This document shows positions 5,449 to 27,451 of a stretch of DNA of 32,188 bases, piece after piece. The notes under the pieces were generated by a model. The model worked only from the letters and a program-made list of their open reading frames with translations. It was not told where the DNA came from and made no database searches. The DNA is from Acidobacteriaceae bacterium (GTDB lineage Bacteria; Acidobacteriota; Terriglobia; Terriglobales; Acidobacteriaceae). The DNA lies in the NCBI GenBank assembly GCA_003131635.1, contig PKVZ01000141.1, positions 1 to 32,188 of the forward strand, given 5' to 3'. Position 1 is the first letter of the stretch. The number at the start of each line of letters is the position of its first letter. Position numbers and translations under genes: made by a program.

Positions 5449-7308
5449 ATGCGTTGTCTGAAATTCAGCCTTGCGATCGGCCTCGTCGCTGCACTCGCGG
5501 CGCTCCCCTCGTTCGCCGGCAGCGAGGAAGCCGTCGACACCCCAATCATCTCCTGCGGCAACGGTGTGCCCGGCGGCATCAGTTGCATCCCCACCAGGAG
5601 GGATCTGAAACAAGCGCGCAACGCCTACTCTCGCGGACTCAAATTGGAGGACCGCAGAAATTTTGACCAGGCCTTCCTGGAGTTCGATGAAGCATCGCGC
5701 CTGGTTCCGCGGGATACGCAATTCTTTTCGGCACGCGAAGTGGCCAAGTCGCAGTTAGTGTTTCAGCACACCGAGCGCGGCGACGCCTGGTTAGCCGACG
5801 GCCATCGCGACCCCGCTGCAGCCGAGTTCCGCGCCGCCCTTAAACTCGATCCCGACAATGACTATATACAGGGTCGCCTAGCGGATGCGCTGCAGAATGA
5901 GACCGCCGCAAACTCCAGCGCCCTCCCAGCCATCCTCTCCGGTTCCGCTGAAATCCATCTCCTGCCCAAAACCGATCGGGCAACATTTCACTATCGTGGC
6001 GACGTTCGCGGCCTCTTCACCGAACTGGCTTCAGCCTACGGCGTTGCCGCTCAGTTTGACGATTCAGTCCAGGCCAAAACCGTTCGCTTCTACGTGGATG
6101 ACGTTGACTTCTTCACTGCCCTCAACCTGGCATGCCGCGTCAGCAAAACCATGTGGACAGCCCTCGACACCCACCAACTCTTGGTCGCGGCAAACACTCC
6201 TGAAAATCACAAGCAGTTCGATCGCATGTCGCTGTTGACCTTCGCCGTGCCCGGAGCCAGCACTCCCCAAGAGGCCACCGAACTGGTCACCTCGCTCCGC
6301 AACATCTGCGATTTCCAGAAAATAAGTCCTGGCCAAAGTGGAACCGTGGAAGTCCGCGCGCCCCAAGCCACGCTGCGCGCCTGCACCACGCTTTTGCAGC
6401 AGTTGACCGGCGAGCGCCCGCAAGTCTCGCTCGAAATCGAGGTCTACCAGATCAGCCACGACCTGACTCGAAACATTGGCGTTCACATTCCCGACACTTT
6501 CAATCTTTACAACATCCCGGTAGCCGCGCTCGCTGCCTTAGGCGGACAGAGCATTCAGTCGCTGGTCAACCAACTGATTTCTTCCGGCGGCATCAACGCG
6601 GCCGGGAGTTCGGGACTTTCCGGCCTGCTCGCGCAGCTGCAAAGCCAGCCGAATTCCATATTCAGCCAGCCCCTTGCGACCTTTGGGAACGGACTCACCT
6701 TCTCCGGATTGAGCCTCGATCAACTGGCCGCCGCGCTCTCTCTGAACGAATCTTGGTCGCGCGCCTTAAGCCGCGTTACTCTTCGCGCCGGTCAAGGCAA
6801 AGAAGCCACTTTCCACGTCGGAGAACGTTACCCCATCCTGAACGCTTCTTACGCTCCCATTTACAATTCGCCGCAGATTTCCCAGGTACTCGGCAATCAA
6901 AGCTATGTTCCGCCGTTCCCTTCAGTCAGCTATGAAGATTTGGGATTGAATCTCAAGGCAACAACCGTGATCAACGGCAACTCCGAGGTCAGCCTGAAAC
7001 TGGAACTGCAAGTCCGCTCGCTCACTGGAGACAGCTCGAACGGAGTACCCGTAATCGCCAACCGCGAATACCAAGGCAGCATTCGCCTGCAAGATGGCGA
7101 GCCTGCCGTTGTGGCCGGAGAAATCACCAGCAGCGATACACGCTCGATGAGCGGCATCCCCGGCCTGGGCGCAATTCCCGGCCTCAATCAAGCCATGGTC
7201 AGCAATTCCCTCACCACCGAGAATGACGAGTTGCTCATCGTAATTACCCCGCGGGTAGTGGCCAATCGCAATCGAATCACCGATGAGATTTGGGTGACGG
7301 AAAACTAG
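5449..7308 (+). CDS. Secretin-domain protein with N-terminal TPR-like region (GspD/PilQ superfamily)
   Basis: The open frame reaches 5380, but ATG 5449 gives a clean signal peptide (MRCLKFSLAIGL... ending SFAG), so the 619-residue form is preferred. Residues about 45-130 contain TPR-like helices (ARNAYSRGLKLEDRRNFDQA; AAAEFRAALKLDPDN). A short N-domain follows (VRFYVDDVDFFTALNLACR), then NHKQF and a QVSLEIEVYQIS segment that opens the secretin core. The core ends with VPVIANREYQGSIRLQDGE, AVVAGEI, GLGAIPGLN and the closing LLIVITPRVV, all characteristic of type II/III secretins. It should form or join an outer-membrane ring. No other secretion or pilus gene is nearby, so its machine is unknown. 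Similar TPR-secretin proteins occur as single genes in Acidobacteriota. Confidence 0.85.
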   Translation: MRCLKFSLAIGLVAALAALPSFAGSEEAVDTPIISCGNGVPGGISCIPTRRDLKQARNAYSRGLKLEDRRNFDQAFLEFDEASRLVPRDTQFFSAREVAKSQLVFQHTERGDAWLADGHRDPAAAEFRAALKLDPDNDYIQGRLADALQNETAANSSALPAILSGSAEIHLLPKTDRATFHYRGDVRGLFTELASAYGVAAQFDDSVQAKTVRFYVDDVDFFTALNLACRVSKTMWTALDTHQLLVAANTPENHKQFDRMSLLTFAVPGASTPQEATELVTSLRNICDFQKISPGQSGTVEVRAPQATLRACTTLLQQLTGERPQVSLEIEVYQISHDLTRNIGVHIPDTFNLYNIPVAALAALGGQSIQSLVNQLISSGGINAAGSSGLSGLLAQLQSQPNSIFSQPLATFGNGLTFSGLSLDQLAAALSLNESWSRALSRVTLRAGQGKEATFHVGERYPILNASYAPIYNSPQISQVLGNQSYVPPFPSVSYEDLGLNLKATTVINGNSEVSLKLELQVRSLTGDSSNGVPVIANREYQGSIRLQDGEPAVVAGEITSSDTRSMSGIPGLGAIPGLNQAMVSNSLTTENDELLIVITPRVVANRNRITDEIWVTEN

Positions 7309-7329
7309 CGGCTTCGGCCCCGAGGCCGC
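7308..7329. terminator. GC-rich hairpin between convergent genes
   Basis: GCGGCTTCGG (7308-7317) pairs with CCGAGGCCGC (7320-7329) over 10 positions with one G-U pair; the innermost pairs must open to make a loop. It starts in the stop codon of the secretin gene and lies between that gene and the convergent DsbA-like gene. There is no U-tract, so it is either a weak intrinsic terminator or a Rho-assisted or 3'-protective hairpin. Confidence 0.4.
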
Positions 7330-7399
7330 GCCTGCCTTCGCGGAGCGAAATTCTTAGTTAAGATTTACAGCCAAAGCCCGAGAGCCGAAGCCCGCCCTC

Positions 7400-8290
7400 T
7401 CACTTCCCTTGCTTCGCCGCAAAATCCACCAACCCCTTGAGCGACTCCGCCGGAACCTGACTTACATTTCCAATACTCCGGCCATTAATAAACAACGTCG
7501 GCGTTCCGGTCACATTCACCGAGTGGCCCAGCGCAATCGAAGCGTCTACATGAGCTTTCGTCACCGGCGTAGTGGCGCAACCTGCAATGTCCGCGCCTTT
7601 CAGTCCCACTCCATCGGCGATCACGGTCAGCTTTTCATCGGCGTTTTCGGCCGTGATGTCGGCCTGAGTTTCGTAGGTCTTCGCAATGAATTTCCAGAAC
7701 GCATCACTGGAGGCCTGAGCCACGCAGTCGGCATAGGCTGCGCCCTTCGCCGCCCAGTTGTGCATCTCGAGAGGAAAGTTCTGAAAAACAAACCGCGCAT
7801 TCGGCTCCGCCGCGATGAGGCCCTCAATCGCCGGCTGCGCCGCCTTGCACGCCGGACATTGCAGATCGCCGAACTCCACAATGGTGACCGGTGCATCTTT
7901 CGGTCCGCGCGCGGGTCCGGTGATTCCCTTTTCCAATGTCTTCCTCGCCGGATCGTACGGCTTGGCGCCGAACGGAATAATGTCGCCGATCACGGCATGT
8001 TCGCCATCCGCCGTGACGTATAGCCGGCTGATTTGCTGGCCCTGCGGGCTCGCCAGAACCACGTCCACCTGCGCCAGTCCCGGCACCGGAGCCGGCTTAA
8101 TGCTGGAAATTTTCCAGGTCAGGTTCGGCTGATAGCCAAATGTCTGTTGCATAAAAGAATTCACGGTTGCCTCCGAGGGAAGATATACCCCCGCCGCAGA
8201 TTTATCGCCGGCCTTCGCGTCTGCCGATTGCGCGGCCGCCACACCACACGTGAACAATAGAATAAGAATCGCGTTGATAGAACTGCGCAT
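7400..8290 (-). CDS. DsbA-family thioredoxin-fold disulfide oxidoreductase (secreted)
   Basis: The ATG at 8290 is chosen over upstream starts because it follows AAGGAAATC (good Shine-Dalgarno) and begins a signal peptide, MRSSINAILILLFTCGVAAA, giving 296 residues. Residues about 35-115 form an N-terminal domain resembling the dimerisation or linker domain of periplasmic Dsb proteins. The thioredoxin_4/DsbA domain begins near GPKDAPVTIVEFGD, with active site Cys145-Pro-Ala-Cys148 and the cis-Pro motif TGTPTLFINGR near the C-terminus. It probably makes or repairs disulfides in exported proteins. It lies 70 bases downstream of nadE on the same strand but has its own RBS. No DsbB or VKOR partner is visible. 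Confidence 0.88.
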   Translation of the reverse strand: MRSSINAILILLFTCGVAAAQSADAKAGDKSAAGVYLPSEATVNSFMQQTFGYQPNLTWKISSIKPAPVPGLAQVDVVLASPQGQQISRLYVTADGEHAVIGDIIPFGAKPYDPARKTLEKGITGPARGPKDAPVTIVEFGDLQCPACKAAQPAIEGLIAAEPNARFVFQNFPLEMHNWAAKGAAYADCVAQASSDAFWKFIAKTYETQADITAENADEKLTVIADGVGLKGADIAGCATTPVTKAHVDASIALGHSVNVTGTPTLFINGRSIGNVSQVPAESLKGLVDFAAKQGK

Positions 8291-11576: not shown

Positions 11577-14396
11577 CTACTCATCGCCTCCCGCCGGAAA
11601 CACGGTGTGCCTCGCCGCAGGCGCGGGTGCATCTCCTCTTTGATCGCGCCACAGAACGTTATTCAGACGCTCCGCTCCCGCCGCGTCGGGCCGCGAGAAA
11701 TCCATCTTCGACGATTCACTTGCTCCCGGCGCATCCCGCTTGTTCGTCTCGTAGATCAGACCATTCTTCAGATTGCGGTAGTCCGCCTCGAATGCGGCCT
11801 GCTTGCCTTCGCCGGAGAACATCGGCCCCATCGCCGGTGCATACGCGTCGTTTTGATTCATCGGCGGTAACCCCAGCAGCATCTCCATCGTGTGAATCAG
11901 GTTGACCGTGGTGTAGAAGCGGTGGTCAACGAAGGTCCCGGCTGCCGTGCCCGGCGAATATTTGCTCACCACGAAGGCTATCGAGCGGTGCGCGTCCACA
12001 TGGTCTGCTCCATTTTGCGCATCGTCCTCAAGAATAAATATCGCCGTGTCATCCCAGTAAGGACTGTGCGAGACCGCGTCCACCACGCGCCCCAGCGCTA
12101 GATCATTGTCGGCCACCGAAGCCGCCGGCCGCGGCTTGGCGGGACGCGTACCTCCAGTGTGATCGTCCGGCAAATAAAGCAAAACAAACGCCGGCAACTG
12201 AAAATCCGCGCTTTCATCGGCCGCTCGGGCGCGCGCGTAAGCGCCGAATTCATTCAGAAATTCATCCGCCCGCAGCTGGTCTGGATAATCCGTGTTGAAA
12301 TCCGGATACAGCGGATCGAAATGATCCCGCAGCACCGCCTTCGTAGGCTTCACACCCTTGAACAGCGGTACCGCCCATGGCCACGGACTCGGCGCGCCAT
12401 GTGGATCTCCCACATTGGACGCCAAAGCGTCTCCCTTTTGCACGTCCGTCTGTGGACACTCAGATTCCTGCCCCGACGGAGTTCCCTGCTTGGGTGACGC
12501 AACCTTGCGGAGTTTATTGCACCACTCCGCATTCACATACTCGCCATAATCGCGATAACTTAGTCCGTGCCGCGCCACGTTATCCCAGAGAAATCCGGTA
12601 GAAGGATCGTCGATATCCGCCTCATTATGCTCAAGCGGATACTCATCAGCCACCGTGCCCTGGAAATCATATGTCCGCTCCTTGCCGCGGTAAGCAATCT
12701 GCCACGTCTTTTCGTTGTAATCGCTGGTGATGGCCGCAGTCGACCACAGATGTCCATCGCCCGAAACTTCTCCGCTATCGTAAAAATTGTCGAGCACACC
12801 GAACTGCAACGCCAGCTTGTGCTCGTTCGGCGTGAAGTCGGCGCCATACATGGTCAATGACGGGTCGCCGTCACCCGGTTTCAGGTCGCCAAGAATCTGG
12901 TCGTACGTGCGATTCTCTTTTATGACGTAGATCACATGCTTGATCGGATTCTTGCCCCCTGCGAACTGAATCGTCCCGGGATCGTTATGCAGCAGGTTAT
13001 CGTTCTCGACCGTTCGTGTAAGTTCATCGAGCTTGTCGAGAGTCGAGGGAATGTTCAACCGCGCGATTGATCCCCGCAGCAGCGTCGGAATATAAGGATG
13101 CGCCTGATGTTTGAGCTCGTATGCAGTCTTGCCCATTCCCTTGTTCGGTCCGGTGCCTTCGCCCTTGGCAGTAGCGATGAGGAGATCGTCGCCGTGAAAG
13201 GCAACTGCGCTCGGGTACCAGTCGGTAGGAATGAAGCCCAGAGCGGCCAAGGTGGTGGGCTCACCCGTCGCATCCGGATTCAGGGTCGAGATATCAAATA
13301 CTGCGACCGCATTGGCGGACGCGTCGGCCACGAAGAGACGCTTCCCGTCCGCAGAGTGCGCCAACGCGCTGGGATAAGTCCCGGCAAACTCCTGATGGCG
13401 AACCGTGCTGTTAAGAAAGGCAACGATCTGCCCGCTCGCTGTCGAAACCGCCGCGACCGCATCAACGTTCGACAGGGCTACATAAAGAAGCTTTTCGTCC
13501 GGACTCAACAGCATCGCCGTCGGATGCGATCCCGGCGCTATCGGATCATCCGGCTCCTTCACCTTGATCCAGCGAACAACCTTCCCGTTAGTCAGATCCA
13601 GTTCCGCCACCTGCGACGCGTTCCACAAACTGCACCACGCGCGCCGTCCATCGCGCAAGGCCACGCAGGTGTAAGGAAATGACGACGGCACCAGGTCATT
13701 GGTGCTCAGGTCGAAGCGCTGAAGTATCTTGCCGCTCGCCACATCCAGCAGCACGGCATTGTCAGAGAGATTATTCGCAACCAGAAGCCGATCATGGCCA
13801 CCACTGGAAATCAGCGCCAGCCCCGCCGGATAAGAAATCGCGGTCCCGGCCGGAGTCTTCTGCAAAGCGATCGCGACCTTTTTCTCCGCGGCGAGCGCCT
13901 GTGGTTCGATTGCAATAAATCGCTCCGCCACCACCTTGCCACGGGCAAAACCGTAAACTGCAATTCCGTTGCCCGTATCTCCAGCTTTCTGTCCCGTCGG
14001 ATCTGTAATCGAACCCACCGAAGCGTAAAGATGTTTTCCATCCGACCCAAAGACCAGTCCCAGGAAGTAACTCTGATGCACGTCCTCGCCGAATCGCTTG
14101 TCGGGATAATCGGCCAGCCGATTCGTCTTCAGGTCGAGTACCGCAATCGACTGCGTCGCCAGTGTCTCCTGCGTTCCATACCCGTCATTCAGCAGCGCTG
14201 CGTAGCGTCCATCCGGACTGACGGCGATGCTGGCGGGAAAGCTGTTGGTGCTGCCGATACGCCCTGGTACGGGAGCCGTCAATGTCTTACTGGTAGAAAG
14301 CGAGATCGATGAGTTGCCAGTCCTTCGCTCCTGCGCGGCGGCAATCTGAAGAACGAGAAATGCGATCACGAAAATGATACGTGAGAATCGAATCAC
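11577..14396 (-). CDS. Bifunctional YncE-like beta-propeller / phosphoesterase (PF04185-type) secreted protein
   Basis: Exported protein of 939 residues. It starts with GTG at 14396, preceded by GGGGAGG (good RBS), and a signal peptide MIRFSRIIFVIAFLVLQIAAAQ. Residues about 45-440 contain YVTN/YncE propeller repeats (FPASIAVSPDGRYAALLNDG; HPTAMLLSPDEKLLYVALSN; YPSALAHSADGKRLFVADA). From about residue 480 a phosphoesterase/alkaline-phosphatase-like domain begins with IKHVIYVIKENRTYDQILGD, followed by FGVLDNFYDSGEVSGDGH, LLYLPDDHTGG, and ILEDDAQNGADHVDAHRS, which carries Asp/His metal ligands. This architecture is known in Acidobacteriota and relatives; the substrate is unknown, with phosphate mono- or diesters likely. 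It is convergent with nothing and monocistronic in appearance. A phosphate-scavenging role beside the pst genes is inferred. Confidence 0.88.
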   Translation of the reverse strand: MIRFSRIIFVIAFLVLQIAAAQERRTGNSSISLSTSKTLTAPVPGRIGSTNSFPASIAVSPDGRYAALLNDGYGTQETLATQSIAVLDLKTNRLADYPDKRFGEDVHQSYFLGLVFGSDGKHLYASVGSITDPTGQKAGDTGNGIAVYGFARGKVVAERFIAIEPQALAAEKKVAIALQKTPAGTAISYPAGLALISSGGHDRLLVANNLSDNAVLLDVASGKILQRFDLSTNDLVPSSFPYTCVALRDGRRAWCSLWNASQVAELDLTNGKVVRWIKVKEPDDPIAPGSHPTAMLLSPDEKLLYVALSNVDAVAAVSTASGQIVAFLNSTVRHQEFAGTYPSALAHSADGKRLFVADASANAVAVFDISTLNPDATGEPTTLAALGFIPTDWYPSAVAFHGDDLLIATAKGEGTGPNKGMGKTAYELKHQAHPYIPTLLRGSIARLNIPSTLDKLDELTRTVENDNLLHNDPGTIQFAGGKNPIKHVIYVIKENRTYDQILGDLKPGDGDPSLTMYGADFTPNEHKLALQFGVLDNFYDSGEVSGDGHLWSTAAITSDYNEKTWQIAYRGKERTYDFQGTVADEYPLEHNEADIDDPSTGFLWDNVARHGLSYRDYGEYVNAEWCNKLRKVASPKQGTPSGQESECPQTDVQKGDALASNVGDPHGAPSPWPWAVPLFKGVKPTKAVLRDHFDPLYPDFNTDYPDQLRADEFLNEFGAYARARAADESADFQLPAFVLLYLPDDHTGGTRPAKPRPAASVADNDLALGRVVDAVSHSPYWDDTAIFILEDDAQNGADHVDAHRSIAFVVSKYSPGTAAGTFVDHRFYTTVNLIHTMEMLLGLPPMNQNDAYAPAMGPMFSGEGKQAAFEADYRNLKNGLIYETNKRDAPGASESSKMDFSRPDAAGAERLNNVLWRDQRGDAPAPAARHTVFPAGGDE

Positions 14397-14482
14397 AGAG
14401 GCCTCCCCAAGCTGCTACAGCAAATAGAAAGATGAGCGTAATTCAGGCGGGAACCCGCGGTCAAAAGCACATAAGCACTTGC

Positions 14483-14523: not shown

Positions 14524-15216
14524 TCAAGGCAGCACTCTTTTCACGATCGCGTCGATGTGCAGCTGCGCGCAGTCAATAAACGGAAACGTCGTATTCGATG
14601 GATTGAAAAGCAGAGCCAGATCCGTTCCCGCAAACACGATCGCTTCCAGACCTTCACGTTGAATCATGGTATGCGCCAGAAAAGCTAAGGTCTTACGTTC
14701 TTCTTTCGCGCCTTCGCCCCGCAGGGCGGTTCGCACATACGCCTCGTGGATTTGATCCACTTCCTCGGCTCGCGGCCGGACAGTATTTTGTCCTTGCAGC
14801 GTACCGAACAAGTCCGTTTCGATGACAAACCGGGTTCCAAACAGAGCGATGCGCTTCCCGAGAATCGATTCGCGGACTACCTGCAGAAGATTTACCATCG
14901 GCAGCGCCGATTTCGTAACCAGCTCTTCGATACATAAATGCGGTGTTACTGCGCTCACCGCCGCCAAATCAGCCCCGCCATCCTTCAACTGGCCAATGAG
15001 CGCGACGAAATACTCCGTCAGATCTGCCAGTCGTTTGGCCTGCACATGGCCCAGGACTTTCTGCATATCCGCGTGCACCATCAAAAGGCGAAGCGGTTTT
15101 TGGAGTTGCGCGTGGGCCTTGGCCAGAGCCTGGTAATAATGAATGGTCGCTCCGACCCCGAGGCCTCCGATCAATCCCAGGCAGAGGCTTTCAGCCGTGC
15201 TCAGTGCCAGATCCAT
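14524..15216 (-). CDS. Aspartate/glutamate racemase-family protein lacking both catalytic cysteines
   Basis: Protein of 230 residues with the Asp/Glu/hydantoin racemase fold signature: LGLIGGLGVGATIHYYQAL at residues 13-31 (family GGMGPxAT...YY), ADLAAVSAVTPH at 82-93, LPMVNLL, and a C-terminal GLEAIVFAGTDLALLF (189-204) and FPFIDCAQLHIDAIV. In active racemases the two central motifs read CNTxH and GCTE, each with the catalytic Cys. Here they read S-Ala89-VTPH and A-Gly197-TD, so both Cys are absent. ATG 15216 follows GGAGAGATCG. It begins 39 bases after the phoU stop and is probably the last gene of the pst operon. It may be a non-racemising member of the family; its function is unknown. Confidence 0.85.
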   Translation of the reverse strand: MDLALSTAESLCLGLIGGLGVGATIHYYQALAKAHAQLQKPLRLLMVHADMQKVLGHVQAKRLADLTEYFVALIGQLKDGGADLAAVSAVTPHLCIEELVTKSALPMVNLLQVVRESILGKRIALFGTRFVIETDLFGTLQGQNTVRPRAEEVDQIHEAYVRTALRGEGAKEERKTLAFLAHTMIQREGLEAIVFAGTDLALLFNPSNTTFPFIDCAQLHIDAIVKRVLP

Positions 15217-15255: not shown

Positions 15256-15972
15256 TTAAACTCCCGACGCGCGCGAGGTGCCCTCGTGCCCGGATGGGTG
15301 CTCGCCATGCTCCTCGGCACCAACATTGTGCCGCACATCGGCACCTTGCACCCAGAAGATGACGTCCTCCGCAATGTTCGTAGCGTGGTCAGCTACGCGC
15401 TCCAGATTGCGCGCCACCAGCAGCGCATCCAGCGCCTGCCGCACCACCTCAGGACGCTGGTTCATCGTCTTCACCAGTTGGATGAACGCATCGTCCTTCA
15501 TGCGGTCCACCACGTTGTCCATTTCCAGCACCGCCTGAGCCAGTTCCACTTTGCCTTCGATGAATGACTCGAGTGCCCGCCGCACCATGGCGCTCACGGC
15601 CGCGCCCATGCGCGCAATGTCCACCGGCAAGTCAACTGCCGGAAGATCCATCATGTCCATCACCCGCTCGGCGATATTCACCGCTTGATCGCCCACGCGT
15701 TCAAGATCGGAATTGATCTTGGTCACCGCCAGGATAAACCGCAGATCCACGGCCATGGGTTGCTGCATCGCCAGCAAGTCGAAGGCGGCTTCGTCGATCT
15801 CCCGTTCCGACGTGTTGATCAGGCTTTCGCCCTCGAGAACCATCTGGCAACGCGTAAGATCGCGGTCAATGTAGGCCTGGCGCGCGCGATCCACCGCCTG
15901 CTCCGCCAGCCCACCCATGCGGAGCAACTTCTGCCGTAGATCGTCGAGCCCTTGCTGAAAGCGCGTGCGCAT
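15256..15972 (-). CDS. phoU: Phosphate-specific transport system accessory protein PhoU
   Basis: Protein of 238 residues with two PhoU helical repeats. The first has EREIDEAAFDLLAMQQPMA, then DLRFILAVTKINSDLERVGDQA; the second has VRQALDALLVARNLERVADHA followed by TNIAEDVIFW. The D/ExxxD-type metal-binding motifs (E-R-V-G-D and E-R-V-A-D-H) are intact. PhoU damps Pho signalling and gates PstSCAB activity. It starts 14 bases after pstB with AAAGG upstream, in the order pstC-pstA-pstB-phoU. The C-terminal roughly 20 residues are His/Glu/Gly-rich and variable (AEEHGEHPSGHEG), possibly able to bind metal. Confidence 0.97.
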   Translation of the reverse strand: MRTRFQQGLDDLRQKLLRMGGLAEQAVDRARQAYIDRDLTRCQMVLEGESLINTSEREIDEAAFDLLAMQQPMAVDLRFILAVTKINSDLERVGDQAVNIAERVMDMMDLPAVDLPVDIARMGAAVSAMVRRALESFIEGKVELAQAVLEMDNVVDRMKDDAFIQLVKTMNQRPEVVRQALDALLVARNLERVADHATNIAEDVIFWVQGADVRHNVGAEEHGEHPSGHEGTSRASGV

Positions 15973-15986
15973 GATCCGAACCTTTC

Positions 15987-16745
15987 TTATCCAAATCTGC
16001 CCGTGATGTAGTCTTCCGTCCGCTTGTGTGACGGTTTGGTAAAGATTTTTTCCGTCTTATCGAACTCGATCATCTTGCCCAGCAGAAAGAAGCCGGTGAA
16101 TTCCGCAACCCGCGCCGCCTGCTGCATGTTATGGGTCACAATTACGATGGTATACCGCTCTTTGAGCTGAAAGATCAACTCTTCAATCTTCCCGGTGGAA
16201 ATCGGATCCAGCGCCGAGCAAGGCTCGTCCATCAGCAGAACCTCCGGCTCCACCGCCAAAGCCCGCGCAATGCAGAGCCGCTGCTGCTGCCCCCCCGAAA
16301 GACTAGCGCCTGATTTCTTGTGGAGCTGATCCTTTACCTCATCCCAGAGCGCTGCGGCGTCCAGCGACCCATGCACGATCTCGTCCAGCTTTCGCCGGTC
16401 GTTAAATCCATTCAGCTTCAATCCGGAAGCGACGTTATCGTAAATCGACATCGTGGGAAACGGATTCGCCTTTTGAAAAACCATCCCCACTCGCCGCCGC
16501 AACTGCGTGGCCGAGGTTCCGTTGTAAGCATCAATCTCTCCGATGCGCACGCTCCCCGTGACCCGCGCCTCGGGAATCGTTTCATGCATGCGGTTCAGGC
16601 AACGAATGAATGTAGACTTGCCGCAGCCCGAGGGTCCAATCAATGCCGTGGCGTGGTTGGCCGCCACTGCCAACTGAATGTCATACAGCGCCTGCGTCTT
16701 GCCATACCAGGCGTTCAAGTTCTCGACTTGGATGCCAACGCCCAT
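15987..16745 (-). CDS. pstB: Phosphate ABC transporter ATP-binding protein PstB
   Basis: ATPase of the high-affinity phosphate importer, 252 residues. Walker [10 protein letters not shown] lies near residue 37, the family phrase [16 protein letters not shown] follows, then the Q-loop [12 protein letters not shown], signature [16 protein letters not shown], Walker [14 protein letters not shown] and switch [10 protein letters not shown]. Length and motifs match PstB rather than other ABC ATPases. It starts three bases after the pstA stop, so its ribosome binding site lies inside pstA and translation is coupled. Confidence 0.98.
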
Positions 16746-16748
16746 AAA

Positions 16749-17633
16749 CTATGCGGCTCCGAAGGTACCACGGCGAACCGCGAAGCGCACCGCGGCGACC
16801 GCACTAACAATGAGAACAATCAGCACCAGCGCTCCCGCCCACGCCTGCCGGTGCCACTCGTCATAGGGGGAAATGGCGTAGTTGAATATCTGCAACGGCA
16901 ATGCGGCCGTGGGTTGGTCTACACGCAGATTCCAGAACTGATTTCCAAACGCGGTAAACAACAGCGGCGCGGTTTCTCCCGCCACGCGGGCAAAGGCCAG
17001 CATGATTCCCGTAATCACTCCCGAGGTTGCGGTGCGCAGTGTGATCGAGAGCGTGGTCCGCCAGCGCGGAATGCCCAACCCATAAGCCGCCTCCCGCAAT
17101 GCCCGCGGCACCAGCAGCAGCATTTCTTCCGTGGTGCGCGTAATCGTGGGAATCATCATGATGGCCAGCGCCACTCCGCCAGCCAGCGCGGAAAAATGTT
17201 TCTGATAAAGAACAACAATGGAGTACGCCACAATCCCAATAACAATCGAAGGCACGCCGTTCAGCACGTCGGCCGTAAAGCGAATCACATCACCCAGGCG
17301 GTTCCGGCCATACTCCGCCAGATAAATACCGGCTCCCACCCCCACCGGAACTCCCAGAACACTCGCCAGAGCCAGAATGAATCCGGAGCCCACAATCGCA
17401 TTCGCCATCCCTCCGCCCGCTTCACCCACAGGTTTGGGCGTTTGCGTCAAAAAAGCCCAGTTGATCGACCCGACTCCCCGGTAAACAAGATAGGCAAATA
17501 TCGCGAACAAAGGCACCAACACCAGGATGACCGTCAACACGGCCACGCCGGTCATCACATGGTCAGTGATCCGTCGCCGCAAAGCGATCACCGGCACAGG
17601 ATTCCGAGTGGAAGTCTTTTCGCTTTCAGGCAT
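16749..17633 (-). CDS. pstA: Phosphate ABC transporter permease PstA
   Basis: Inner-membrane permease of 294 residues with about six hydrophobic helices (for example HVMTGVAVLTVILVLVPLFA near residue 25 and GSGFILALASVLGVPVGVGA). The permease motif around LREAAYGLGIPRWRTTLSI is the EAA loop contacting PstB. The longer frame to 17726 is rejected because ATG 17633 (MPESEKTS) follows GAGGGCGA and overlaps the pstC stop by eight bases (ATGCCTGA), a typical coupled arrangement. Confidence 0.96.
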   Translation of the reverse strand: MPESEKTSTRNPVPVIALRRRITDHVMTGVAVLTVILVLVPLFAIFAYLVYRGVGSINWAFLTQTPKPVGEAGGGMANAIVGSGFILALASVLGVPVGVGAGIYLAEYGRNRLGDVIRFTADVLNGVPSIVIGIVAYSIVVLYQKHFSALAGGVALAIMMIPTITRTTEEMLLLVPRALREAAYGLGIPRWRTTLSITLRTATSGVITGIMLAFARVAGETAPLLFTAFGNQFWNLRVDQPTAALPLQIFNYAISPYDEWHRQAWAGALVLIVLIVSAVAAVRFAVRRGTFGAA

Positions 17634-18663
17634 TCGCCCTCGCAGGCTGCCCGCGCGTAACCGTCCACACCAGCAATCGCGCCAGCGCGTTAACCACAAT
17701 TGTGACCAGAAACAGGGCCAACCCAATCTCGATGAGAGCCGCCAGATTCAAGTCCCCGGTAGCTTCACTGAACTCATTGGCCAGCACGCTCGCCATGGTG
17801 TATCCCGGCGCAAACAGCGACTTCGCAATCTCCGGCCGGTTTCCAATCACCATGGTTACGGCCATCGTTTCTCCTAGAGCGCGTCCCAGTCCCAGGATGA
17901 TGCCGCCCATAATTCCCGCCCGCGCATTGCGCAGCACACTGATCCGGATCATCTCCCACCGTGTCGCGCCCAGCGCCAGTGCCGCCTCCCGCTGATGCTG
18001 TGGCACCACCATCAGCACTTCCCGCGTGATCGAAGAAATAATAGGGATAATCATGATCGCGAGAATAATTCCCGCCGCCAGCATACTGATCCCATAAGGC
18101 GGCCCCGTGAAAAACCCGGTCCAGCCTAACGTGCGCGACAGGAAAGGTTCGACATAGTTGCTCAGAATTGGCACCAGCACAAAAATCGCCCACAATCCGT
18201 AAACCACGCTTGGAATGGCCGCCAGCAATTCCACAAAAAACGAGAGCGGCCTGCGCAGCACCTTGGGACACATTTCAGTAGTGAATACTGCCACTCCAAC
18301 CGCCAGTGGTACCGCAATAATCAGAGCCAACAGCGATGAAACCAGGGTTCCGTAAATGAATGGCAGCGCGCCGAATTGTTCATTCACCGGATCCCAATCG
18401 CGTCCGGCAAAAAACTTAAATCCAAACGCGTGCCAGGAAGGCCCGGAACGCAACACCAGTTCATAGACGATCAGCGCCAGCGTTCCCAGCACCGCCAGAC
18501 CGCACGCCAGCATGCCGAATTGGAAGATTTTGTCGCCAGTTTCTCCACTTGCCCAGGAAGAATGCGCCGACCGCCTCCCCGTCGAAGGGATCTCGCTAAC
18601 TTTCTTCGTTTCAATGGGTTGCGAGGATGGCATATCAGGCCGAGGTGGGGCGGGCAAAGCCAT
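17626..18663 (-). CDS. pstC: Phosphate ABC transporter permease PstC
   Basis: First gene of the pst operon, 345 residues. A 45-residue cytoplasmic N-terminus rich in Pro and Ser precedes six or so transmembrane helices (FQFGMLACGLAVLGTLALIV; YGTLVSSLLALIIAVPLAVG; MLAAGIILAIMIIPIISS). The PstC phrases FFAGRDWDPVNEQFGALPFI, AAIPSVVYGLWA and the EAA loop REAALALGATRWEMIRISVL are intact. The ATG at 18663 follows GGAGGGG. pstS is not adjacent and lies about 8 kb away at 26447-27451. A TTAACA repeat lies 24-40 bases upstream. Confidence 0.97.
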   Translation of the reverse strand: MALPAPPRPDMPSSQPIETKKVSEIPSTGRRSAHSSWASGETGDKIFQFGMLACGLAVLGTLALIVYELVLRSGPSWHAFGFKFFAGRDWDPVNEQFGALPFIYGTLVSSLLALIIAVPLAVGVAVFTTEMCPKVLRRPLSFFVELLAAIPSVVYGLWAIFVLVPILSNYVEPFLSRTLGWTGFFTGPPYGISMLAAGIILAIMIIPIISSITREVLMVVPQHQREAALALGATRWEMIRISVLRNARAGIMGGIILGLGRALGETMAVTMVIGNRPEIAKSLFAPGYTMASVLANEFSEATGDLNLAALIEIGLALFLVTIVVNALARLLVWTVTRGQPARANA

Positions 18664-18779: not shown

Positions 18780-19625
18780 ATGTCGATCGATCCAAAGCGC
18801 AGCCGCGAGGTTTTTCGGAAGCTTGAACGGGACCTGATCAAGCTCTCTTCGAAGCCTCCGGCGGAAAGTGTGCACCGCTTCCGCACCGGCACGCGCCGTC
18901 TTCAGATACTGCTCGGTGAACTTTCTTCCAAGCTCGACCGCAATGAGAAAAAGCTTCTCAAACTATTGAGCCGTATTCGCAAACGCGCTGGGAAAGTGCG
19001 CGATCTCGATGTTCAATCCGCGGCGCTGCGCAGCTTGAAAGTTCCCCGCGAGCCACGGCGCAAGACCCAACTGGTCAATCAATTGATCGAACTTCGCGGC
19101 CAGCAGGAAAAGAAACTCCGCAAGGCGGTCGATGAAACCACCGTCCGCGAAATTCGCAAGCGCCTGAAGCGCGCCGCCAGGCGCTTTAATCCGGAAGCCT
19201 GCCGCGATCCTTTGGCTGTCGCCCGGCGAATGCTGCAACGCCTTGACTCCGCCGCCGAACCGCTCACCGAAGCCGTGCTCCACCAATACCGCATCCTCAG
19301 CAAGCGCGCTCGCTACGCGGCCGAATTTGCAACTCCGTCCCAAGAAGCCGAGCAGTTCATTGCCGAACTCAAGCGCATACAGGACGCCTCCGGCGACTGG
19401 CATGACTGGCTCACCCTCACCCAAACCGCCAACCAGAATCTCGGCGACGTCCGCGAGTCGCCCCTCGTCGCCGAACTCCACAATGTCACCGGAGCAAAAT
19501 ATCGGCATGCCGTCGCCGTCCTCTCTCAGATGCGAAGCAAACGAGAGACTGACTCCCATCGCCCTGTCAGGCCTTCGGTTCCGGCGCCTGTGGAAACAAG
19601 CCGCAAGACGGCATCCGCAGCCTGA
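18780..19625 (+). CDS. CHAD-domain protein (polyphosphate-binding type)
   Basis: All-helical CHAD protein of 281 residues. The domain starts with a VHRFRTGTRRLQILL segment (His and Arg of the family's VHxxRVxxRRLR motif), continues with IRKRAGKVRDLDVQ and IRKRLKRAARRF, and a second HQYRILSKRARYAAEF motif, then DASGDWHDWLTL. CHAD domains are rich in conserved His/Lys/Arg, bind inorganic polyphosphate, and target proteins to polyP granules in bacteria. No CYTH domain is fused. Gene neighbours ppx and ppk1 strongly support a polyphosphate role. The ATG has no clear RBS. It is divergent from pstC across 116 bases containing the Pho-box candidate. Confidence 0.9.
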   Translation: MSIDPKRSREVFRKLERDLIKLSSKPPAESVHRFRTGTRRLQILLGELSSKLDRNEKKLLKLLSRIRKRAGKVRDLDVQSAALRSLKVPREPRRKTQLVNQLIELRGQQEKKLRKAVDETTVREIRKRLKRAARRFNPEACRDPLAVARRMLQRLDSAAEPLTEAVLHQYRILSKRARYAAEFATPSQEAEQFIAELKRIQDASGDWHDWLTLTQTANQNLGDVRESPLVAELHNVTGAKYRHAVAVLSQMRSKRETDSHRPVRPSVPAPVETSRKTASAA

Positions 19626-20120: not shown

Positions 20121-21650
20121 ATGCCGACCTTTGCCGCGGTTGATATCGGTTCCAACTCCGTTCGCCTGAAGATCGCGCGCCTCACGCGGGGTCATCTTCG
20201 CCAGGTTCACGAGGACCGCGAAGTCACTCGTCTCGGAGAAGGCGTCTTCCGCTCCGGCTTTCTCACCCCGGAGTCGATGGCCGAAACCGTCAAGGTCCTG
20301 CGCCGCTTTCACCGCGCCACACAACAGGTCGTCACCGACCCCGTCCGAGTCGTCGCCACCAGCGCCCTCCGCGATGCCCGCAATTCCCAGGCCTTTCTGG
20401 AGTGGGTGCGCTCCGCTACCGGCTGGACGGTCGAAATTATCTCCGGCTTGGAAGAAGCCCGCCTGATTCACCTGGGCCTCGTCTCTAACCTTCGCGCCGA
20501 CAGTTCTCCTACCTTAATGATGGATCTCGGAGGCGGAAGTTGTGAACTCACCGTCTCCGCCCGCGGTCAAATCCGTGAGACCGTAAGTCTTCCTCTAGGC
20601 GCCGTCCGTCTCACCGACGAATTCCTCCGCCACGATCCACCGCGCAAGGGCGAACTCAAACGGCTGCAGGGATTCATCGCCCGCGAAGTCAACCGCATCG
20701 CTTCGCGCGTCATCGCAGCAAAAGTGAAAAATGTAATCGCCACCTCCGGAACTGCCGACGCGTTGGCCGCCGCCGCCAGCAACCTGCGCAAAAACGGCAG
20801 CCGCCAGCGCCTGGTCGTCTCCCGCGCGGAGATCACGCGACTCGCCAAGCGCCTGGCTCGCCTGCCCGTGGACGAGCGCAGGAAGATCGAAGGCATCGGT
20901 CTGCGGCGCGCCGAAATCGTCGTCGCCGGCGCCATGGTCTATCACGAACTGCTCGACCGCCTTCATCTGAAAGGCTTCCGCTATTCTCCGCTGGGCTTGC
21001 GCGACGGCCTTTTGGCGCAGATGGCTGCCGAGCGTGACCGCAGCACGCGCTCCGGACGGCAAATCGAATCGGAACGCTGGGACTCCATCACCAAAGCCGT
21101 GGCCCACTATCGCGTGGATATGAAGCATGCCCTCGACGTGCGCGAGTCCGCCATGTTCTTGTTCTCGGCGCTCCGCTCAGTGCATGGCCTGGCGCCGGAA
21201 TTCCGCGAGTGGCTCTCCGCCGCCGCGATGCTTTACGAGGTGGGAGACTACGTCAACCGCAACGGCCATCACCGCCATACCTATTACATCATTTCGAACT
21301 CGGAGATCCTCGGCTACACCCCGCAGCAGCGCCGTTTAATCGCAGCCATCGCCCGCTATTTAGGAAAGTCGCGCCCCGCCCTGGACGAAGCTGCGATCAA
21401 AGCCCTCGATCCCGCCGATCGCCTCGGAGTGCAGAAAGCGATCATGCTTCTTCGACTCGCCCGGGCTTTAAATCTTGGCCGCAGCCGCGCCGTCCAAAGA
21501 GTTCGGGTAAGCCACCGCGCCGCGCAGGTACACCTCGCGCTGGTGCCTCGCCGCCGTATGGGAGTGGATTTAGAACTCTGGGCGATCGAGAAAGACGCCC
21601 CTTATTTTCGCGAAGTGTTCGGCCGCGAACTCTCCACTGCCGCCGTGTAG
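20121..21650 (+). CDS. ppx: Exopolyphosphatase / GppA-family phosphatase
   Basis: Protein of 509 residues of the Ppx/GppA family, releasing terminal phosphate from polyphosphate or from pppGpp. The actin-like ATPase-fold N-terminal part shows AAVDIGSNSVRLKIARL (phosphate 1 loop), ATSALRDARNSQ, the catalytic-Glu region VEIISGLEEARLIHLGL and DLGGGSCELTV (phosphate 2). The C-terminal helical domain resembles the HD-like region (WLSAAAMLYEVGDYVNRNGHHRHTYYII). Its HD dyad is replaced by Tyr372-Glu373, so hydrolysis there is unlikely. Ppx and GppA cannot be told apart by eye; adjacency to CHAD and ppk1 favours polyphosphatase. The last 49 bases overlap the convergent sixA. Confidence 0.92.
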   Translation: MPTFAAVDIGSNSVRLKIARLTRGHLRQVHEDREVTRLGEGVFRSGFLTPESMAETVKVLRRFHRATQQVVTDPVRVVATSALRDARNSQAFLEWVRSATGWTVEIISGLEEARLIHLGLVSNLRADSSPTLMMDLGGGSCELTVSARGQIRETVSLPLGAVRLTDEFLRHDPPRKGELKRLQGFIAREVNRIASRVIAAKVKNVIATSGTADALAAAASNLRKNGSRQRLVVSRAEITRLAKRLARLPVDERRKIEGIGLRRAEIVVAGAMVYHELLDRLHLKGFRYSPLGLRDGLLAQMAAERDRSTRSGRQIESERWDSITKAVAHYRVDMKHALDVRESAMFLFSALRSVHGLAPEFREWLSAAAMLYEVGDYVNRNGHHRHTYYIISNSEILGYTPQQRRLIAAIARYLGKSRPALDEAAIKALDPADRLGVQKAIMLLRLARALNLGRSRAVQRVRVSHRAAQVHLALVPRRRMGVDLELWAIEKDAPYFREVFGRELSTAAV

Positions 21651-22132
21651 AGCGTGCGCAGCGCCTTCGGCGTCAAACACCATTGCAGTGTCCCTGAACT
21701 GCGGCGCATGTCCACCCGCGCCACCGCACCCTTCTTCAGTTCGATCGAAGCTTCGCATCCCGACTCGCTGATCACCGTTCCCAGAAACTGGCTGAGATTG
21801 GGATTATGTCCCACCACCATGATGGATTCCTGCTGCGCATACTTTTCCAGCAGCTTGCGGAAATCGGCAAAACTCGCCCCCGGACGCAGTCCGGCATCGA
21901 TCTGCAGCTTGCCTTCATAACTCATTTCGTTACCCACCAGCGAGGCCGTCTGCGTGCAGCGTTTCAGCGGGCTGGAAATAATCACATCCACCTGCGCCTC
22001 GATCGCAGCCAGGGCCCGCCCCACATACCCGCACTGCTCAATGCCTTCCTTATCGAGTGCGCGCTTCTCGTCCTTCTTCGGATTTACCAGGGGCTCGCCG
22101 GCGCTGGCATGACGCAGAAAATAAATAATCAT
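21602..22132 (-). CDS. sixA: Phosphohistidine phosphatase SixA
   Basis: Histidine phosphatase superfamily protein of 176 residues. The RHG-type motif reads FLRHASAGE with the nucleophile His8; SSPLKRCTQTA carries the second Arg, and VVGHNPNLSQF the second catalytic His. SixA removes phosphate from phosphohistidine, in E. coli on phosphotransferase proteins. It starts six bases after the ppk1 stop, so the two are co-transcribed and translation is coupled. Because Ppk1 works through a phosphohistidine intermediate, SixA acting on it is an attractive but untested idea. Its 3' end overlaps ppx by 49 bases on the opposite strand. Confidence 0.93.
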   Translation of the reverse strand: MIIYFLRHASAGEPLVNPKKDEKRALDKEGIEQCGYVGRALAAIEAQVDVIISSPLKRCTQTASLVGNEMSYEGKLQIDAGLRPGASFADFRKLLEKYAQQESIMVVGHNPNLSQFLGTVISESGCEASIELKKGAVARVDMRRSSGTLQWCLTPKALRTLYTAAVESSRPNTSRK

Positions 22133-22138
22133 TGCGAA

Positions 22139-24292
22139 TTATCTTTCCCTTCCCACCGGAACCCTGCGCTTCCTCGCCGGAGCCGGCACCGGGGGCGCAT
22201 TCGACTGCTTTCCCTCCGCCACACTGATCAGATAATCCTGCGCGCTGAAAGCCGCCGCGCCCGTCGGCGCCTTACGATTCCGTTTGCCGTGCATCGGCTG
22301 CCACGCCCGGATGTACGTCGCGTCCCGCAACAAAATGCGCGCCTTCCGATTATCCGCCAATAAAGAATCGAGAATTTCGTGACGCACCCGCTCGCGCATG
22401 AATTCATCGCGCAACGGCACCAGAACTTCCACTCGCTCGTAAAGGTTGCGCGGCATCCAGTCGGCGCTGCCAATGTAAATTTCTTCCTCGCCCGCATTGC
22501 CAAAGTAATAAATCCGGCTGTGCTCCAAGAACCGTCCCACAATACTCCGCACTTTGATTCGGTCGCTCAGCCCGCGCACCCCCGGCCGCAAAGCGCAGAT
22601 GCCGCGCACAATCAAATCCGTTTCCACTCCCGCCTGCGAAGCCCGGTACAGCGCGTGGATCACGTTCTTATCGAGCAGCGCATTCATTTTGGCGATGATC
22701 CGTCCCGGCCGCCCCTGCCGCGCGTGCTCCGCCTCGCGATCAATCAGCGCAATCGTCTTCTCCGCCAGATCGAGCGGCGCCACCAGCAGCGGCTCATAGC
22801 TGGGATTCTCCGCGTACGCCGTCAGAAAACTGAAAACGTCATGCACCGCCCGCGTAATTTCCGGATTCGCCGTGAACAAACTCAAGTCCGTATAGATCCG
22901 CGCCGTGGTGGCGTTGTAATTTCCCGTCCCGATATGCGCGTAGCTGCGCACCCCATCCGGATCGCGCCGCACCAGCAGCGACAATTTGCAGTGCGTCTTC
23001 AACCCCACCAACCCATGAAACACCTGCACTCCCGCATCTTCCAGATCGCGCGCCCAGCGGATGTTATGCGCTTCGTCGAATCGCGCCTTCAACTCCACGA
23101 CCGCGGTCACTTCCTTCCGCGGTGCCGCGTCGATCAGCGAAGGCACGATCAGCGAGTGCTCGTTGGTGCGGTAAAGCGTTTGCTTGATCGAGAGCACGTG
23201 CTCATCTTCCGCCGCCGATTCAATAAACGAAACCACCGCGTCATAAGAGTCGTAGGGATGGTGCAACAGAATATCGTGACGCCGCAGATCCTCGAACAAA
23301 TTCCGAGATTTCGCCGTCAGCCGCAGCTCCCGCGGAGCGAAGGGACGATATTTCAAATCCGGCCGCGGCGTCTGCTCGTATACATTAAACAGCCGCGACA
23401 AATTCACCGGACCATTCACCGGAAATACCTGCCACGAATCAAGCTCAAAAACGCTTCGCAGGCGCTCGATCATTTCCGGATCGGCATCGGCTTCGATTTC
23501 CATGCGCACCGCGTCGCCCTTGCGCCGGTTGTGCAGCTCCGTGCGCACCGATTCCAGCAGATTCCGCGCCTCTTCTTCCTGCAGATACAGATTGCTGTTT
23601 CGCGTCACACGGAAGGGCGCCGCTGCCACAATGTCGTACCCGTGATACATGTTCTGCGCATGATGCGCCACCAGGTCCGCGAGAAAAATAAAATCCGTCG
23701 TGTTCTCCGATGGCAGCCTCACCAGGCGTGGCAAACTGCGCGGCACCGAGACCACTCCCGTATAAGTCAGCGCCGAGCGCCGCCGCCGTCGCAACAGCAA
23801 TCCCAGACACAGGGCTTTATTGATTACCCGGGGAAAAGGATGCGCGGGATCGACCGTAACCGGCGTTAGCAGCGGGTCCAGTTCCTTTTCGCAATACTCA
23901 TCCACAAACCGCCGCGACTCGGCGTCCAATTCGTGCATGCCGAGCACCCGAATCCCATGCTCCGCCAGCGCCGGACGCAGCGCATTCCAGCAGTTATATT
24001 GCTCATCCACGAACTTGTGCGTAAGCCGCGCCAGAACCTCGCGCTTGTCAGTGAGGGTGAGACCGTCAGGGCCAGCTTCGTTGTAGCCATCCTCGATCTG
24101 TTGCACCATGGCCGCAATGCGAATCTCGAAAAATTCGTCCAGATTACTCGCCGAAATCGCCAGGAACTTCAGCCGTTCCAGCAGCGGATTGCCCGCATCC
24201 TCGGCTTCCTCGAGCACACGCCCGTTAAACGCCAGCCACGAGGTATCGCGGTTCAGATAGTACTCAGGATTTTCCAGCGAAATGCGAGCCAT
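22139..24292 (-). CDS. ppk1: Polyphosphate kinase 1
   Basis: Makes polyphosphate from ATP, reversibly, at the membrane or granule. The 717-residue length is typical. The N-terminal domain shows YLNRDTSWLAFNGRVLEEA and FLAISASNLDEFFEIR; the head domain HPFPRVINKALC; the first catalytic domain VSFIESAAEDEHVLSIKQTLYR and YAHIGTGNYN with His453 (the autophosphorylated His of the family); the second domain GICALRPGVRGLSDRI and FLEHSRIYYF with His591, then YIGSADWMPRNLYERVE. The C-terminal 35 residues are Pro/Arg/Lys-rich. The ATG has no Shine-Dalgarno. It is the first gene of a ppk1-sixA pair. Confidence 0.97.
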   Translation of the reverse strand: MARISLENPEYYLNRDTSWLAFNGRVLEEAEDAGNPLLERLKFLAISASNLDEFFEIRIAAMVQQIEDGYNEAGPDGLTLTDKREVLARLTHKFVDEQYNCWNALRPALAEHGIRVLGMHELDAESRRFVDEYCEKELDPLLTPVTVDPAHPFPRVINKALCLGLLLRRRRRSALTYTGVVSVPRSLPRLVRLPSENTTDFIFLADLVAHHAQNMYHGYDIVAAAPFRVTRNSNLYLQEEEARNLLESVRTELHNRRKGDAVRMEIEADADPEMIERLRSVFELDSWQVFPVNGPVNLSRLFNVYEQTPRPDLKYRPFAPRELRLTAKSRNLFEDLRRHDILLHHPYDSYDAVVSFIESAAEDEHVLSIKQTLYRTNEHSLIVPSLIDAAPRKEVTAVVELKARFDEAHNIRWARDLEDAGVQVFHGLVGLKTHCKLSLLVRRDPDGVRSYAHIGTGNYNATTARIYTDLSLFTANPEITRAVHDVFSFLTAYAENPSYEPLLVAPLDLAEKTIALIDREAEHARQGRPGRIIAKMNALLDKNVIHALYRASQAGVETDLIVRGICALRPGVRGLSDRIKVRSIVGRFLEHSRIYYFGNAGEEEIYIGSADWMPRNLYERVEVLVPLRDEFMRERVRHEILDSLLADNRKARILLRDATYIRAWQPMHGKRNRKAPTGAAAFSAQDYLISVAEGKQSNAPPVPAPARKRRVPVGRER

Positions 24293-26446: not shown

Positions 26447-27451
26447 CTATCGAACCTGCTTAATCGCTTCTTTCTCTTTCTGGACAACGCCTTCCGGCAG
26501 CGGCGCGTAGGAAAGAGCCGCCGTCATCTTTTGTCCATCCGTCACCATCCAGTTAAGAAAATCGGCGAGAATTTTCCCGTGGGCCGCATCTTTCGATTGC
26601 GCCGGAATCAGCAGCCAGGTAAAACTCGAGATGGGATATGCATCCTTACCCGGCGCATTCGTAATCGAAACCCGAAAGTCCGCCGGCATCTTGGGCGCGG
26701 ACGCAGCCGCCGCCGTCACGCTCTCCAGCGACGCCTTCACAAAATTTCCCGCTGCATTCTTCACGCTGCCGTAGGTAATACTGTTTTGCACGGCATAGAT
26801 CAATTCCACGTATCCAATCGACCCCTGCAACTGCCGGATCGATCCCGCCACGCCTTCGTTCCCTTTTCCACCCAACCCCCTCGGCCACTTCACCGACGTT
26901 CCTGTTCCCGCTTCGCTTTGCCACTCCGGGCTGATCTTTGAAAGGTAGTCCGTCCAGATGTACGTCGTCCCGCTTCCGTCGGAGCGATGCACCACGATGA
27001 TGTCTTTGTCAGGCAGATTCACTCCAGGGTTCGCGCCCGTAATGGCCTTGTCGTTCCATTTTGTGATCTTCCCCAGGAAAATTCCCGCCAACGCCTCGGG
27101 AGTAAATTTCAACTCCGCGCTCACTCCCGGAATGTTGTAGGCAGGCACGTCCGCGCCCAGAACCGTCGGCATGTGAAGAATCTTCGTCTTCGCTTCCTTC
27201 AGCATGTCGTCCGTCATTGGCCCATCGCTGGCGCCAAAATCCACTGTTCCGTTGATCACCTGGCGGATCCCACCGCCGCTGCCGATGGACTGGTAATTGA
27301 TTTGAATGTCAGGATGCAGCTTGTGATATTCGCTGAACCACTTCGAGTACATGGGATACGGAAACGTCGCTCCCGCTCCATTCAGCGTGGTCTGGGCCAG
27401 CGTCGGCATAGCTAGCAGCGCGCACACCAATGTCAGCGCAATTCTTCGCAT
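26447..27451 (-). CDS. pstS: Phosphate-binding protein PstS
   Basis: Periplasmic phosphate-binding component of the Pst importer, 334 residues. The signal peptide is MRRIALTLVCALLAMPTLAQ. Phosphate-contacting segments of the family are intact: LNGAGATFPYPMYSKWF, YQSIGSGGGIRQVINGTVDFG-type followed by ASDGPM, VHRSDGSGTTYIWTDYL, and the GNEGVAGSIRQLQGSIGYVE loop. The ATG follows GAGGAG at nine bases. Unlike most genomes it is separated from pstCAB-phoU (17-18 kb) by about 8 kb, and is instead followed by a porin. A candidate Pho box and promoter lie upstream. Confidence 0.97.
   Translation of the reverse strand: MRRIALTLVCALLAMPTLAQTTLNGAGATFPYPMYSKWFSEYHKLHPDIQINYQSIGSGGGIRQVINGTVDFGASDGPMTDDMLKEAKTKILHMPTVLGADVPAYNIPGVSAELKFTPEALAGIFLGKITKWNDKAITGANPGVNLPDKDIIVVHRSDGSGTTYIWTDYLSKISPEWQSEAGTGTSVKWPRGLGGKGNEGVAGSIRQLQGSIGYVELIYAVQNSITYGSVKNAAGNFVKASLESVTAAAASAPKMPADFRVSITNAPGKDAYPISSFTWLLIPAQSKDAAHGKILADFLNWMVTDGQKMTAALSYAPLPEGVVQKEKEAIKQVR

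Follow-up and report, generated by a model that had tools for sequence, protein, structure and literature searches.

An Asp/Glu-racemase-fold protein of Acidobacteriota without cysteine at either catalytic position, encoded behind phoU in one small lineage

What does a protein with the fold of aspartate/glutamate racemases do when neither catalytic position holds a cysteine, and is its function revealed by a place next to the phosphate transport genes? These questions are raised by a gene at positions 14524..15216 (minus strand, stop codon included) of the window, i.e., the whole 32,188-nucleotide stretch of contig PKVZ01000141.1 (Acidobacteriaceae bacterium, assembly GCA_003131635.1) that was analyzed. 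The gene starts with ATG and encodes 230 amino acids, and the plus-strand reading of the same interval is interrupted by stops. On the same strand lie pstC (17626..18663) and pstA (16749..17726), both with BPD_transp_1 matches, pstB (15987..16745; ABC_tran), and phoU (15256..15972; PF01895). Pfam matches also identified a CHAD protein (18780-19625, plus strand), Ppx/GppA (20121-21650, plus), a histidine-phosphatase family protein that is SixA-like by reading (21602-22132, minus; PF00300), Ppk (22139-24292, minus), and a PstS-like binding protein (26447-27451, minus); the names pstS, pstC, pstA, and pstB are readings of general transporter matches beside phoU. The gene that follows (11577..14396, minus) encodes a beta-propeller/phosphoesterase-like protein (PF10282, with PF04185 barely above its cut-off at 23.6 versus 23) and is what most often follows phoU in this genus.

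The preliminary description of this locus stated that the Asp/Glu racemase fold was intact, and this was borne out by profile, sequence, and structure comparisons. The Pfam family PF01177 matched residues 16 to 223 (E value, 3e-18; score, 66.8 bits with a cut-off of 31; profile positions 1 to 210 of 211), which places the protein in the superfamily. The nearest solved structures by phmmer were PH1733 of Pyrococcus horikoshii (2zsk; E value, 2.7e-12) and the E. coli L-Asp/Glu racemase. An AlphaFold2 model built from six sequences was weak (mean pLDDT, 66.9; pTM, 0.66); with this weak model, Foldseek returned 2zsk (E value, 1.4e-8), and VIA-align ranked 2zsk first (Z, 15.0; 171 residues; rmsd, 3.4). 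The ten best solved matches of the weak model in VIA-align were aspartate-racemase entries (Z, 15.0 to 12.0), consistent with a two-domain racemase fold. The fold is shared with the aspartate racemase PhAspR (1jfl and 2dx7; Z, 12.0 and 13.3 with the weak model), whose second catalytic cysteine is Cys194, and with arylmalonate decarboxylase (2vlb; Z, 7.5 with the same model). The predicted model thus supports a racemase fold for the window protein and nothing beyond the fold.

The two motifs that would carry the catalytic cysteines read S88-A89-V90-T91-P92-H93 and A196-G197-T198-D199. Ala89 (codon 14950..14952, minus strand, counted manually from the ATG) occupies the first catalytic position, and Gly197 (codon 14626..14628, minus) occupies the second. 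The earlier observation that a racemase-fold protein has lost both catalytic cysteines is confirmed. The accompanying term "cysteine-less" is apt for the catalytic positions and wrong for the protein as a whole, which contains C12, C95 (codon 14932..14934, minus), and C216. PMC12661438 describes the cysteine pair as conserved across the superfamily. The window protein does not show the arrangement of the two-cysteine racemases, with Cys in both the CNT and the GCT motifs; unlike it, PhAspR has two catalytic cysteines, one of which is Cys82 (PMC12838360). E. coli YgeA/EcL-DER (5ell, 5elm, and 5hra) and RacX belong to the same superfamily branch, and the first Cys is replaced there too (Thr83 and Ala79, respectively); unlike the window protein, they keep the second (Cys197 and Cys193) and are active racemases. 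Their one-cysteine arrangement is also absent from the window protein and from all 65 Cys-less rows, which have Gly197. PH1733, the best match by both sequence and fold, likewise has Ala at the first position and is reported in PMC12838360, citing Kita 2009, not to racemize Asp or Glu, but it keeps the NT pair and the second cysteine (GCTEL). Arylmalonate decarboxylase resembles the window protein in having Gly at one catalytic Cys position; there, however, Gly74 is at the first position and the proton donor Cys188 is at the second (PMC4996985), whereas the window protein has Ala at the first, Gly at the second, and Cys at neither.

These comparisons bear on the earlier claim that normal racemization looks impossible. 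According to PMC12838360, RacX, with its Ala79/Cys193 pair, racemizes with broad specificity, and its activity is lost when the NT residues are mutated; the C197S variant of EcL-DER is reported as inactive. Because RacX is active with Ala at the first position, Ala89 alone proves little. Gly197 is the telling change, and it is on this residue that the claim rests.

Judged from the alignments, both catalytic cysteines were lost long ago, and their loss is conserved. Among 93 aligned rows (two of them duplicates), residues 89/197 were A/G in 48, S/G in 13, and X/C in 32, so that A/G or S/G was found in 61 of the 93; in a wider set, both catalytic cysteines were absent from 65 sequences. These fall into three groups. 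Group A (23 loci, including the window) shows PA[VIF]xP[HQL] or near variants together with AGTD, and its sampled members are all from the family of the window; group A' (10 loci from two families) shows SIAGH or SMGAH with GGTD; and group B (32 loci across the phylum) shows mostly ANTPH with G/A-GTE. Gly197 was present in 23/23, 10/10, and 32/32 members, respectively, and A89/G197 was conserved in all 23 aligned members of the window's clade (window included). Close homologues with the cysteines, which would have indicated a local mutation, were not found. Position 89 is variable (T, V, D, A, S, G, or C) in Cys197 sequences. The motif counts cover part of the homologue matches, with sampling drawn from Acidobacteriota genomes and from plasmid and viral records; the residue-column counts leave aside two duplicates, L089 (Tyr160/Gly197), and L017 (Ile160/Cys197). 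With the window protein as the query, 16 plasmid records were found, and all 7 examined keep the second Cys; the group B query gave 249 plasmid records, to which no motif class was assigned. No viral relatives were found in the IMG/VR scans.

Two side observations concern Cys197-containing relatives. In a separate acidobacterial racemase group (L013-L030), the first catalytic residue is Asp or Val (PDNTIH or PVNTVH), the second is Cys197, and the first loop is altered (A[CS]SxEGA). On an Azospirillum plasmid (L101), a Cys-containing racemase-family gene adjoins a polyphosphate kinase gene, probably by chance.

By profile, the window protein scored 63 bits against TIGR00035, the NCBIfam amino-acid racemase model (cut-off, 93.1), and thus lies outside that family; it reached the cut-off of none of the NCBIfam racemase models. 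Among its relatives, two members of group B scored 158.7 and 169.7 bits and three members of A/A' scored 67.1 to 88.4 bits. No description of a subfamily lacking both cysteines was found in searches of the open-access literature. The suggestion that the protein might belong to an undescribed subfamily therefore appears to be correct; it is apparently a Cys-less, seemingly undescribed branch of a known superfamily.

To place the loss on a phylogeny, a careful tree was built with the motif columns and position 160 removed, without five long branches (L089, L099, L128, L129, and L102), the partial L017, and the duplicates L106 and L107. Groups A and A' together formed a clade (100/100), as did group B (86/94). 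This tree implied two changes to Cys loss, with a single change in 20% of the bootstrap trees; a quick tree implied a single change (support, 78), and an AU test did not reject one Cys-less clade (p = 0.495).

Loss of both catalytic cysteines might also be expected of a decaying relic of a racemase, and the gene does evolve faster than phoU. In 10 pairwise comparisons of the five pst-linked orthologues (see below), dN/dS of the racemase-like gene ranged from 0.125 to 0.240, compared with 0.022 to 0.096 for phoU and 0.071 to 0.144 for the phosphoesterase-like gene. These values are nevertheless far below 1, no internal stop occurs in any of the five species, and loop residues are fixed throughout the clade. 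The purifying selection indicates that the gene is functional and somewhat less constrained than its neighbors; dN/dS largely refutes the relic explanation, which we regard as very improbable, and together with the clade-wide A89/G197 it also disposes of a local mutation or pseudogene.

In group A, the cleft loops, defined from the general structure of the superfamily, had a mean entropy of 0.75 bits versus 1.56 bits for the rest of the protein (circular-shift p = 0.009), and they were the better-conserved part in all four groups. T198, D199, Y160, D215, and H220 were each present in 23/23 members of group A; His48 was present in 22/23, and Ser occupied that position in 32/32 members of group B. 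The NT pair is altered in group A, with Asn replaced by V/F/I in 23/23 members and Thr replaced by A/S in 10/23. The lost thiol, the partly lost carboxylate-binding pair in group A, and the conserved loops together best fit a protein that binds a ligand rather than racemizing it. We therefore favor, with a probability of roughly 0.55, a former racemase that has kept its ligand cleft and most likely binds a small acid without racemizing it, with no phosphate-specific role. As judged from A89/G197, thiol-based 1,1-proton-transfer catalysis would have been lost, and the protein would thus be inactive as a racemase. The predicted two-domain fold around the cleft, taken from the weak model, is kept, and a small carboxylate or amino-acid-like ligand would most likely be bound in the interdomain cleft. 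The space formerly taken by Cys197 is perhaps filled by a coincident tyrosine, Tyr160.

This tyrosine is also central to a serious rival, according to which the protein would be an enzyme whose chemistry has changed. Tyr160 (codon 14737..14739, minus strand) accompanies Gly197 without exception in the samples: it was present in 23/23 members of group A, 10/10 of A', and 32/32 of B (65/65 Gly197 sequences) and in 0/31 Cys197 sequences, in which position 160 was Ile, Leu, or Val (31/31). The column is anchored by E163-L164 just after it (97 to 100% in B and in the Cys197 proteins), and neither of the omitted rows L089 and L017 breaks the rule. Unlike the window protein, the E. coli racemase and PH1733 have Ile at this position in the phmmer alignments. 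A later sample of 40 further loci, which played no part in finding the rule and was drawn as 43 of 65 match places without a locus (22 were left out), yielded 43 frames, of which 42 had Cys197 with Ile/Leu/Val160 and 1 had Gly197 with Tyr160; it mainly tests the Cys197 side, and related sequences are not independent. The rule may rest on one or two evolutionary events.

In the rival reading, the acid/base role of the Cys197 thiol would have passed to Tyr160, together with Asp199/His220 or, in group A, with the conserved Cys95, and the protein would act as a racemase, isomerase, lyase, or decarboxylase on another substrate. The exclusive pairing of Tyr160 with Gly197 is what such an enzyme would lead one to expect, as is the distribution of C95, which is near-fixed in A (20/23) and A' (10/10) and absent from B (0/32) and the Cys197 proteins (0/31). 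The strict conservation of T198, D199, Y160, D215, and H220 is equally expected of an enzyme and so weighs against a pure binder. So does RacX, which is active with Ala at the first position and whose C193S variant is markedly reduced rather than dead, although a raised kcat with weaker binding is also stated (PMC12838360); the second Cys is perhaps not strictly needed in every relative. Against changed chemistry, the loss of Cys and the gain of Tyr may go back to one or two events in history, which keeps their association from being independent evidence of chemistry, and the Asn of the NT pair is also gone in group A. We consider the changed-chemistry explanation possible but tentative. A stronger version, in which the Cys197 thiol disappeared in step with the arrival of Tyr160 and this coupled change founded a tyrosine-instead-of-cysteine enzyme class in the racemase superfamily, spread across Acidobacteriota, seems rather doubtful.

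The genomic context provides a further hint of metabolism. In three group A loci (L075, L077, and L083), the gene lies 48 to 59 nt behind a zinc-type dehydrogenase gene, called by Pfam in L075 and by blastp cluster in L077 and L083. This context points to metabolism rather than phosphate, favoring an enzyme over a pure binder. An AraC-type gene is divergent from the dehydrogenase gene in L075 and L083, and members of the AraC-type cluster lie downstream in L077. For the genes upstream in L070, L081, and L064, Pfam gave no match. Shared neighbors were also considered as a pointer to the substrate, but the flanking ORFs of the remaining loci formed only small clusters by blastp. One genome (G111) contains four homologues, which fits a gene family whose surroundings change. 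A genome carrying the racemase-like gene also has another PF01177 match with an intact CNT motif, so that D-glutamate supply is probably separate.

The binder reading, like the changed-chemistry one, leaves the place behind phoU to be explained. The preliminary description had read it as the end of the pst operon and proposed a role in phosphate homeostasis; a dedicated part of the phosphate regulon, such as a ligand sensor modulating PstSCAB-PhoU signaling, would account for it. The gap of 39 nt between phoU and the gene was as described, the surroundings in the window form a large phosphate/polyphosphate locus (pstS, ppk, ppx, CHAD, and phosphoesterase-like genes), and the gene is kept behind phoU in all five species of its sublineage. 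However, pstC, pstA, pstB, and phoU adjoin the gene in only 5 of 41 homologue loci (the window and 40 others, some on short contigs, such as L076 with 3.4 kb). These five (the window and L058-L061) belong to one clade within one genus and encode proteins 70 to 90% identical to the window protein; the remaining 36 loci all lie away from pst. A close PhoU was found in 42 of the 45 genomes of the genus, at 43 places, 30 of which had a locus. In these 30 loci, whose phoU spacers were scanned with the window's own proteins, the racemase-like gene came next in 5, the phosphoesterase-like gene came next without it in 24, and neither came next in 1 (L148). Four genomes of the genus (G005, G238, G379, and G023) carry a group A gene elsewhere and lack it behind phoU.

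There is thus no conserved pst-phoU-racemase unit of the kind expected of a Pst/Pho component, and in the window, the gene does not end the series, as the phosphoesterase-like gene follows on the same strand. Because the linkage is confined to five sister species and the gene is absent at phoU in 24 of the 30 loci of the genus, we consider a dedicated phosphate sensor improbable. As a trait of the subfamily, this role is rejected by the phoU surroundings of the 30 loci and the neighborhoods of the 41; missing pst linkage elsewhere was the outcome that the preliminary description itself had named as refuting.

A promoter-like element, TTTGACC ... TTACGCT (14435..14465, counted by hand; minus strand), precedes the phosphoesterase-like gene in loci of the genus whether or not they contain the racemase-like gene, which therefore sits between phoU and an apparently older promoter of the next gene. 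Of the 28 loci in which the phosphoesterase-like gene was seen, 25 have TTTGAC in front of it (24 of them TTTGACC), and TTACGCT was visible after this hexamer in 17 of the 25 within the 110 nt viewed, the site lying outside that stretch in 2 of the 25. A sigma-70 scan gave one promoter-like site against 2.3 expected by chance, and the conserved TTTGACC element was not among its sites. In L058, an opposite-strand ORF (6952-7458) with a P-loop-like stretch by eye lies between the racemase-like and phosphoesterase-like genes, so the spot takes insertions; no such ORF was seen in the window or in L059-L061, where the spacers are short. The short gap makes cotranscription of the racemase-like gene with phoU likely. 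Under the binder reading, a stand-alone gene found in varied contexts in Acidobacteriota would, in this one small lineage, lie behind phoU and ahead of the next promoter and would probably be carried on the pst transcript, with no phosphate-specific role.

The start of the gene differs among these orthologues. By eye, L059 (9885-10090), L060 (9790-9920), and L061 (5650-5750) have no ATG, GTG, or TTG at the expected start; an AAGGAG-like ribosome site 6 nt before a CTG is common to all three, and an ATG is nearby in the window. This suggests a CTG start codon in the three orthologues. In L059, an in-frame GTG lies upstream of the shared CTG.

Proteins of this kind are likely to be named racemases, even though the residue needed in characterized relatives is gone, and the Gly197/Tyr160 signature provides a simple rule to separate them from racemases. 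The pair is a new, testable element, and through it one can ask directly by experiment if members of the superfamily are able to function with no thiol. Should the two Cys-less clades have separate origins, as the tree allows, the swap from Cys to Gly/Tyr would have happened twice. The locus also illustrates that operon position can mislead: adjacency to phoU in a single lineage resembles a functional link, an impression that comparison across the genus removes.
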